64,000 nt of DNA from Oscillatoriales cyanobacterium (GTDB lineage Bacteria; Cyanobacteriota; Cyanobacteriia; Cyanobacteriales; Microcoleaceae). Every line of letters begins with the position of its first letter. Within the stretch, counting starts at the first letter, position 1. The stretch spans positions 62,001 through 126,000 of the forward strand of contig RDXX01000039.1 of assembly GCA_004292955.1 (NCBI GenBank). Reading direction: 5' to 3'. This document shows positions 40,073 through 43,184 of this stretch, piece by piece. The position numbers and the translations under genes were made by a program. Under the pieces are notes generated by a model that saw nothing but the letters and a program-made list of their open reading frames with translations, was not told where the DNA came from and ran no database searches.

Positions 40073-40300
40073 ATGCACACCTACACTGCAATTGCTTTAC
40101 TGAGCCTGTTGGGCATTACCTTGAGTGCCAGCGCCGCTCGATATTTTGAACGCCTAGTGGAACTGCTCGTAATTGCCACTGCTGATTATATGTTCTTGGC
40201 GTCCACTCAATCACAAAAAGGCGATCGTTCTCCAGAAAGAGGCAGCGGACGCAGAGAGTTTGCTCAGCACGATCTTTACACACATTACATACTAGCTTAA
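40073..40300 (+). CDS. patX: PatX-like secreted precursor peptide (RGSGR motif)
   Basis: Signal peptide MHTYTAIALLSLLGITLSASAA; C-terminal GDRSPERGSGRREF; paralogue 680 bp downstream; near hetR. Confidence 0.82.
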   Translation: MHTYTAIALLSLLGITLSASAARYFERLVELLVIATADYMFLASTQSQKGDRSPERGSGRREFAQHDLYTHYILA

Positions 40301-40465
40301 TGGCATAGGACGAAAGAAAGTTCTGCAAATGAGTGGGTTTCTGCCGCCCGTGTCGATCTGATTTTCTGGGATTCTAGTTGGTCACGTTCGTTTGGCAACT
40401 GCACTTCTTGTTGACAGTCATTAGGATATTTTTGCGTGTTAAAAATAATAGCAGATCGAGCTGCA

Positions 40466-40513
40466 ACCGCCATCTATTGAGGGATTTACTCTTTCAATAT
40501 TTGGCGGTTTTGT
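40466..40513 (+). terminator. putative terminator of first patX-like unit
   Basis: aaccgcca...tggcggtttt hairpin + T tract; equivalent hairpin after second copy. Confidence 0.65.
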
Positions 40514-40537
40514 ATGTTCCAGGCTGGAGAGACTTTT

Positions 40538-40662
40538 GGGAGCATCTCAATGAATGCAAAAAAGCAATTTCTTTACAGTGCGAGCGTCCCCGCTCGCGAT
40601 TATAGATCGCGAGCGGGGACGCTCGCACTATAAAATCAAAACATCAAAACTGAGATGCTCCC
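40538..40662. mobile_element. MITE, TIR GGGAGCATCTCA, 8-bp TSD AGACTTTT (copy 2), with 24-bp perfect internal hairpin
   Basis: agactttt|GGGAGCATCTCAAT...AAAACTGAGATGCTCCC|agactttt; agtgcgagcgtccccgctcgcgat-tatag-atcgcgagcggggacgctcgcact. Confidence 0.88.
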
Positions 40663-40979
40663 AGACTTTTTACCTGTCAATTCAGGTAACTAAAATTTAT
40701 TTTGGGTGAGACAATTTAAAAAATTGAGGACTTACGTATTAAGACCAAAGAAATCGGTTTTTTTACCTCATCTGTGGAGTACAACGCAAGATTTTCGTAA
40801 AAAACTGCTGGTTAAGCGGAGTCGAAACCCGGTTTCTGCTCGCCCCTGCGTCCAGGACTAAAATCAAATAATTCTCCCATCATGTTTTTTTGGGTAGTCT
40901 GGCAAATTCAAGGAAATCAATCCTGATTAGCAAGGGAAAAGTCCGTATCTGTAACTAGACACTGACACGGATACTACCC

Positions 40980-41198
40980 ATGCACACCTACACTGCAATT
41001 GCTTTACTCAGCCTGTTGGGCCTTAGCTTGAGTGCTACCGCCGCTCTAAGCATAGAATCCCCAGTCCCACAGCTAAAAACTTCTACCGCTCAATATATGT
41101 TATCAGCGCAAACTCAACAAAGAGGAGATCGCGCTCCCCGCAGAGGCACCGGACGGTATGATTTGATGCAGGTCAACACTGACACTCAGGCACTATAA
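40980..41198 (+). CDS. patX: PatX-like secreted precursor peptide (RGTGR motif)
   Basis: MHTYTAIALLSLLGLSLSATAA signal peptide; GDRAPRRGTGRYDL. Confidence 0.85.
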   Translation: MHTYTAIALLSLLGLSLSATAALSIESPVPQLKTSTAQYMLSAQTQQRGDRAPRRGTGRYDLMQVNTDTQAL

Positions 41199-41397
41199 TA
41201 ATTTCGATCGCATTGCCAGAAAGCTAGTTCCGCAACTGACTTGTTTCTGGTTTCGAGGCTGGTTTCGAGGTCGCCCGTGTCGATCGATCGCATTTTCTGG
41301 GATTTATAGTTTGTCAGGTTCGTCAGGCCACTGCACTTTTTATTGATACTCCCTAGAAGATTTTTTTTGTAACAAATGTCACAATATAAACTGGAGC

Positions 41398-41438
41398 TGC
41401 CATCTACGTAGAGATATATTCTCGTAGGTGGCGGTTTT
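41398..41438 (+). terminator. putative terminator of second patX-like unit
   Basis: tgccatctacg...cgtaggtggcggtttt hairpin + T tract. Confidence 0.6.
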
Positions 41439-41838
41439 GTATTGAAAATGCTCTTTCTCTTTTTCCCATTCTCCCCCTCTCTGAGTCGCCTCAAATTCTT
41501 CCGATCGCAATAGTTCTTTACGTTTTCCCCCCACAGGTGGGGTTTAATTTTTAACCGCTGCACTATAATTGACGTGCGATAACTAACTTAATATATAGCT
41601 ACACCCTGAGTGCAGAGGGTGCAGCTCTCGACTTAAATTCGCCAATAAGAACCACTTATTCGGTGTCGATCGCCTTTAAGCTAAGGCCCGAGTGACCTCA
41701 GGAAAATTAACCGGCCTGAATCTTAGGGTAGCTGCCAAGCTTTCCGGCGACTGTCGGCTATGCTTGATTCGGCGGTCTCGCAATATTTCTTTTATGGAGG
41801 ATGAAAAGATGCCTCCAAGTTTTACTATTTCGGAGATT

Positions 41839-42278
41839 GTCAGTAACTCAGGGAATCAACGCCACTGAGCTTGTAAGAGTAATCGAGCAAGCTGTACTGA
41901 CGGGCCTCAGACTTTCGAGGTCTACGTTATTTGAGTCAGGACACTCCTTGAATGCGACGCTAGTTTTCCGCTCTGTCGCTTGTAGTTAAACAGTCTTAAA
42001 GTCACTCTCGTCAGTGCTGCAAGCCTCACAAGCTCTTATAACATTGACCGACAAGCGAACATTACCCCGCTTTCTTAGGCTCCATCAGGAGCAAACATTA
42101 TGCGTACAGGGTTGTAAGGTTTGAGGTGGTAATTGTCCCATCGAAAGTACATTACAAAAGTACACCTGATCGAACAACCCCAAGGCGGTAATGGAAAGAT
42201 TCAAGGCGATTGAAATCGCCTGGTCGTTTTCCTCTCAGGTCTTTCATACTCTGAGTTTCCCACTTACCTAGTGTTTTT
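41839..42278 (+). ncRNA. HEARO/IscB-omegaRNA-like structured RNA, standalone (copy B), in hetR leader
   Basis: Collinear conserved blocks with 9763-10127; ends GTTTCCCACTTACCTAGTGTTTTT immediately before ATGA of hetR. Confidence 0.77.
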
Positions 42279-43184
42279 ATGAAAAATGACTCTTTAGATC
42301 TGGTCAAAAGCCTGAGCCCCAGTGCAATGGATCAGATCATGCTATATCTGGCGTTTAGCGCCATGAGAACCAGCGGACACAGGCACGGAGCGTTTTTAGA
42401 CGCGGCGGCAACGGCAGCTAAGTGTGCCATTTATATGACCTATATGGAGCAGGAAAACAACCTGCGGATGACCGGACACTTGCATCACATTGAGCCTAAA
42501 CGGGTGAAAGTCATCGTCGAGGAAGTCCGGGAAGCTCTGACTAAGGGAAAATTGCTGAAAATGTTGGGTTCCCAAGAACCTAGATATTTGATTCAGTTTC
42601 CTTATGTCTGGCTGGAACAGTATCCTTGGGTTCCGGGACGCCCTCGGATTCCGGGAAACAGCTTGACGGCGGATGAGAAAAAATATCTCGAAGGCAAGAT
42701 TCCTCCTAATCCGCCTGACGCTCAACTGATCAATTCTTTTCAGTTTATGGAGTTGATCGAGTTTCTACATAGACGATCGCAAGAAGAAATGTCAGCAGAA
42801 AGGCGAATGCCTTTAAGCGAAGCTCTAGCAGAACACATCAAGCGCCGCTTGATCTATTCCGGAACCGTGACTCGAATTGACTCTCCTTGGGGAATGCCTT
42901 TTTATGCCCTCACCCGCGCTACTTACTCTCCCGCAGAACAGGAAGAGCGCACGTTTACGATGGTGGAGGATACGGCTAGATATTTCCGACTGATGAAGGA
43001 TTGGGCGGAAAAACAACCGAAAGTCATGCGAGTTATGGAAACTTTGGATGTTCCGCCGGAACGCCTAGAACAGGCTGTTGAGGAATTAGATGAAATTATT
43101 CGTAATTGGGCCGATCGCTATCACAAGCGGGGCGAACCAACGATGATTGTACAAATGGTTTTTGGGCCAAAAGACGACGATTAG
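42279..43184 (+). CDS. hetR: HetR heterocyst/pattern regulator
   Basis: Near-identical to HetR signature [46 protein letters not shown]...[26 protein letters not shown]. Confidence 0.97.

Follow-up and report, generated by a model that had tools for sequence, protein, structure and literature searches.

Old tandem patX paralogues upstream of hetR in Microcoleus, with a ligand motif kept in the distal copy and usually lost from the proximal copy across the genus

Background

The PatX protein of Nostoc/Anabaena PCC 7120 (family model NF047413) is a short precursor with an N-terminal signal peptide and a C-terminal RG(S/T)GR hexapeptide (HRGTGR), and a promoter element of DIF1 type lies a short distance ahead of the start codon of its gene. 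Elhai and Khudyakov are said to have described, in 2018, this DIF1 motif (TCCGGA) within 69 nt upstream of patX. In Nostoc, PatX is exported and cleaved with the help of PatP, after which HetR, once bound by the hexapeptide, comes off the DNA (PMC12756182); a structure of the HetR peptide site is available (PMC4649674). PatS and HetN of Anabaena likewise act on HetR through ERGSGR and RGSGR, this motif being the sole feature that they have in common with PatX (PMC7761841), and their precursors, unlike the exported PatX, are probably dealt with in the cytoplasm (PMC12756182). Outside heterocyst-forming organisms, the closest described arrangement is that of the filamentous Leptolyngbya BL0902, where a single patX lies immediately upstream of hetR and is apparently co-transcribed with it. 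When this patX was deleted, gene expression shifted in a way that mostly did not depend on hetR (PMC11298460), which calls for caution in reading PatX products as HetR ligands. A control of filament growth through necridia has been proposed (PMC12756182).

The locus described here belongs to a filamentous Microcoleus with a genome of 7.3 Mb (99.9% complete). It lies in a stretch of 64,000 nucleotides, hereafter the window, for which an initial annotation had reported two patX-like open reading frames and hetR on one strand; the positions and the strand of all three were recovered (Table 1).

Table 1. Features of the patX-hetR locus (positions in the window)
Feature	Position	Strand	Remarks
DIF1-like promoter element of copy A	40015-40020	+	TCCTGA, differing from TCCGGA at one base; 58 nt before ATG; followed by N18-TATCAG
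patX copy A (distal)	40073-40300	+	75 aa, ...GDRSPERGSGRREF...; Sec-like signal peptide and an ERGSGR hexapeptide
Intrinsic terminator of copy A	40462-40514	+	fold -24.6 kcal/mol, z -6.0; U-rich end
Small interspersed hairpin, a long inverted repeat rich in GC, located between copies A and B	40577-40634	.	read from sequence
DIF1-like promoter element of copy B	40921-40926	+	TCCTGA; 59 nt before ATG
patX copy B (proximal)	40980-41198	+	72 aa, ...GDRAPRRGTGRYDL...; hexapeptide RRGTGR
Gene-conversion tract in copy B, source copy A	40983-41006	+	yields MHTYT in place of MKNYP
Intrinsic terminator of copy B	41393-41440	+	fold -26.2 kcal/mol, z -6.1
HEARO element	41840-42278	+	439 bp; no nuclease ORF; exactly 5' of the hetR ATG
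hetR	42279-43184	+	301 aa; NCBIfam PRK13245, 583 bits (equivalog model)

Results

Identity of the two copies and layout of the locus

Both copies exceeded the curated cut-off of 30 bits of NCBIfam model NF047413 ('heterocyst-inhibiting protein PatX'), with 32.1 bits for copy A and 32.5 bits for copy B. Each carries its RG(S/T)GR motif near the C-terminus and, as read from the sequence, a putative signal peptide in which an ASA/ATA-type site comes after the hydrophobic stretch MHTYTAIALLSLLG at the N-terminus. A Pfam search gave no match for PatX, and the protein database assigns PF28278 to these proteins. Both open reading frames were kept in relatives in the same context. At the sequence level, these data confirm that copies A and B are genuine PatX and more than chance matches, as had been proposed.

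The differences with PatX of Nostoc/Anabaena PCC 7120 are several: two tandem copies lie by hetR and one more is unlinked, the motif of the linked copies is internal and followed by a tail of 13-15 aa, the promoter element reads TCCTGA and not TCCGGA, and the host lacks nifH, none being found above cut-off in the genome. The occurrence of PatX beside HetR in non-heterocystous filaments, also put forward initially, was borne out by this locus of Microcoleus, in which heterocysts are not known, and the suggested survey of linkage in relatives revealed a hetR-linked patX at most of the other loci compared, in single copy outside the genus. The description 'directly upstream of hetR' held as to order and strand, but not as to distance: 1,080 bp separate the stop codon of copy B from the hetR ATG, the HEARO element lies inside this gap, and the patX genes have terminators of their own.

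Two further observations concern the surroundings of hetR. Tandem GTCAGTT copies follow its stop codon (43184-43245), and in one relative (L125, G024:C102) an insertion of about 1.5 kb, with an ORF resembling TnpB of the IS605 type, is located between patX copy B and hetR.

A third patX and PatX in other genera

The third, unlinked patX is found on another contig (C55:19888-20088; 56.5 bits with the PatX model). Its product terminates exactly at ...LPERGSGR, with PERGSGR at the C-terminus. Unlinked genes of this kind are widespread in the genus; in the M. vaginatus group (L100, L106, L111, L115 and L116), RGSGR is replaced by RGEGR, RGGGR or PGDGR. Among 62 genomes of the family, close tandem pairs were found only in Microcoleus, and other genera often had two PatX matches lying far apart.

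In Lyngbya aestuarii, PatX has two RGSGR motifs, one internal and one terminal, and in Arthrospira the terminal motif is intact and the internal one degenerate. These motif numbers (L048:4321 and L051:4286) suggest a birth and loss of ligand copies inside one precursor.

Predicted transcription units

A TATC(A/T)G sequence stands 18-19 nt after TCCTGA in both copies. Comparison of upstream sequences showed that a matching block (TCCTGA or TCCCGA, then TATC..) precedes hetR-linked patX genes across the genus, and that unlinked patX genes have a similar one, mostly (T/C)CCTGAT...GTATCA. Neither an exact TCCGGA nor the HetR site GGGN5CCC occurs between positions 39900 and 42279. Since each copy ends with its own terminator, an operon with hetR is unlikely and was rejected as a candidate; copies A and B would rather form separate, complete units, which distinguishes them from the apparently co-transcribed gene of Leptolyngbya BL0902.

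Age of the duplication

In the phylogenetic tree, bootstrap support was 99% for the clade of the distal copies and 100% for a second clade that holds most proximal copies. Proximal genes from L020, L022 and L023 clustered with single-copy genes, and L032 harbored a separate, younger patX pair. Because copies A and B fall into separate and well supported clades, the tandem duplication is judged from the tree to be old.

The initial annotation had pointed to near-identical signal peptides. Residues 1-14 are indeed identical in A and B, though this identity comes from local gene conversion. Among the 93 sites that separate A-type from B-type sequences, only five are A-type in copy B of the window, and these five are contiguous (chance of contiguity 1.7e-6). 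The B-type sites on either side of them are 40954 and 41009, which gives a tract of 24-54 bp, and the closest relatives of copy B have MKNYP at the same place. A short A-to-B conversion therefore accounts for the identical MHTYTAIALLSLLG of the window copies; together with the separate clades, it rules out a recent duplication.

Fate of the ligand in distal and proximal copies

Selection was estimated as omega by codon likelihood for each region, with a neutral rate either shared across regions or specific to the region. A set of 199 homologues was also drawn from a database of 5.8 billion proteins; its clustering at 90% favours variable members, and its counts give a trend only.

ERGSGR was present in 14 of 14 full-length distal hetR-linked orthologues of the genus, and the motif in all 12 single-copy hetR-linked genes. 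The omega of the distal ligand (0.12-0.24) points to a clearly constrained motif in copy A. In five distal orthologues the stop codon falls exactly after RGSGR, which fits a ligand ending there. Among proximal hetR-linked copies, RG(S/T)GR was retained in 4 of 15, all four from the clade of the window. In the 90%-clustered set, and with the reserve just stated, the motif was found in 21/21 distal, 109/117 single-type and 5/61 proximal homologues. A fifteenth distal patX, that of Tychonema bourrellyi (L014:3536-3610), lacks most of the signal peptide and still has its ERGSGR end.

The loss of the motif from the remaining 11 proximal genomes and 56 proximal-type database proteins could mean that, of the two copies, A alone supplies a working HetR ligand and that copy B is a decaying duplicate, its RRGTGR being a passing stage toward motif loss. 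Such decay would leave copy A and the unlinked PatX as sufficient ligands, and would agree with the closest relatives of the window clade, which include RRGGGR and RRGNGR variants (P0004, P0005). It would also agree with the origin of the threonine of RRGTGR, which is a recent one-base change (AGC to ACC) common to L009 and P0002, copy B of L010, L125 and P0001 reading RRGSGR. The motif-lost copies are nevertheless not simple pseudogenes: their frames are open, and their signal peptide and body evolve under purifying selection (omega 0.36-0.40). Their changes are point substitutions and in-frame length changes, and reading of the codons excluded compensated frameshifts. Moreover, in the four genomes of the window clade, the ligand of copy B varies less than the remainder of the protein (omega 0.22 vs 1.08 for leader/signal peptide and body; 2dLL 3.0, not significant), so that its motif is apparently still constrained there. 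On balance, simple decay of copy B seems unlikely to us.

If the body is maintained and the ligand is not, the proximal lineage might have taken a new job, with a translated and exported precursor whose variable Arg-rich segment would act as a strain-specific signal or would compete for export or processing; copy B of the window would then be ancestral-like. Across 38 proximal proteins of the 90%-clustered set, a procedure that enriches variable members, mean identity was 96% in the N-terminal region and 56% in the ligand segment; there were 37 distinct, Arg-rich ligand strings, whose length changes keep the frame. The final Arg of the motif was kept in all 15 aligned proximal copies. With a shared neutral rate, the motif-lost ligand segment had an omega of 2.0 (2dLL 10.1), suggestive of positive selection, but with its own neutral rate this value fell to 1.2, not different from 1 (2dLL 0.3), and positive selection was not upheld; relaxed constraint with a locally higher rate fits as well. 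No matching variable receptor is known, and the HetR pocket is constant within the genus. A new function of this kind is accordingly considered quite improbable.

The initial annotation had further proposed that one copy each of RGSGR and RGTGR could provide two ligands of different HetR affinity. This pairing is not a conserved arrangement, as shown by RRGSGR in L010, L125 and P0001 and by the absence of a motif from most other Microcoleus copies B. The recent S to T shift and the RRGSGR of relatives leave a conserved two-affinity system unsupported, and a conserved division of labour between S and T was ruled out. Nostoc HetR binds ERGSGR with a Kd of 12 nM (PMC4649674) and HRGTGR with a Kd of 88 nM, a value from a different laboratory (PMC12756182), and the side chain of the residue preceding RGSGR is irrelevant to binding (PMC4649674). 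By analogy, a difference in affinity between the two ligands is possible, these values being those of Nostoc HetR and the HetR studied here carrying E254T.

The HetR receptor

HetR of the window has homologues of known structure (PDB 4hri/4yrv/4ynl). Residues R223, E253, D256, D270 and D278, which in Nostoc either touch the peptide or are important for binding it (PMC4649674), are all kept, and residue 254 is changed from E to T. Threonine occurred at this position in 29/29 Microcoleus-group loci examined (L009-L032 range), and glutamate in 53/55 others; the pocket is invariant within the genus. Two further HetRs with T at 254 were observed (L077, L085).

In Nostoc, E254 and D256 hold the N-terminus of the peptide, and the E254A substitution raises the Kd from 12 to 91 nM (PMC4649674). 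By comparison, E254T would take away one of the two groups holding the peptide N-terminus, and is a point against reading the hexapeptides as HetR ligands. Judged from the sequences, it is a genus-wide pocket change in a genus with duplicated patX, this being an association only.

A HEARO element at the start of hetR

The interval preceding hetR matches the covariance model RF02033 (41839-42065; 100.2 bits, gathering score 83). As in other HEARO/IscB-associated RNA elements, the full HEARO RNA is matched and co-terminal copies occur in the genome; the differences are that no nuclease ORF lies inside and that the element is sited exactly at the hetR start codon. Across the genome, 23 HEARO matches exceed the gathering score, and a full-length co-terminal copy found elsewhere in it (L158) is 81% identical over 441 columns. 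The element is absent from the same hetR leader in L009, L010 and L125. A second element of the window, also without a nuclease ORF (9764-10127), ends exactly at an ATGA start. The gene that follows it begins with MKIATWNVNS and is presumably exonuclease III.

In relatives the hetR leader is organized as GGAGATTGTG-ATGAAAAATG, those without the element reading GGAGATTGTGATGAAAAATG; in the window it has become GGAGATTG-[439 bp]-ATGAAAAATG, with no clear Shine-Dalgarno sequence, the native GGAG (ribosome-binding site) being displaced by 439 bp. The insertion may thus alter or reduce hetR expression or translation in this strain. Taken further, it could leave little or no HetR and impair the whole module at its receptor, all the more so as this hetR is the sole copy of the genome; such an outcome is hardly probable, since the ORF is intact, its product is 100% identical over 301 aa (tblastn) to HetR of two close Microcoleus-group genomes, and a similar element before another ORF of the window indicates that genes seem to tolerate HEARO there.

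Discussion

Taken together, both genes are probably PatX precursors and old tandem paralogues that yield HetR-inhibitory hexapeptides, the ligand of copy B being usually lost in the genus. Each copy would be transcribed alone from its DIF1-like promoter, and the precursors would be exported through Sec and cut to the hexapeptides ERGSGR (A) and RRGTGR (B). These would reach cells along the filament, dock in the lateral cleft of the hood domain of HetR and free HetR from DNA, so that A, B and the unlinked patX would jointly determine how strongly HetR is inhibited along the filament. Copy A would carry the essential ligand, and that of copy B could vary freely across most of the genus and would still be kept in the clade of the window. 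As the host lacks nifH, the output is probably not heterocyst spacing, and could be cell fate or growth at the level of the filament. 

A bolder scheme would have PatX of Microcoleus split into a constant distal HetR ligand and a diversifying, exported, Arg-rich proximal signal or competitor, with E254T as part of the same rewiring and the window as an intermediate. We mention it as a speculation and hold it to be very unlikely.

No paper joining 'patX' and 'Microcoleus' was found in a literature search that did not include Elhai and Khudyakov 2018, the main PatX paper, so that a prior report of the tandem arrangement is possible. Relative to the literature compared, that paper being outside it, the invariant distal and variable proximal ligands across the genus, the E254T change of HetR and a HEARO element placed at the start of hetR are new.

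These observations bear on the role of PatX and HetR in filaments that never form heterocysts, and the natural variants of Microcoleus could be used to ask if HetR has remained the target there. Such short peptides are easily synthesised, hence their binding is open to direct measurement. The genus has up to three PatX precursors, an invariant and a hypervariable one among them, as well as a fixed change in the receptor pocket, and may offer a case for how the gene of a peptide morphogen duplicates and diverges.
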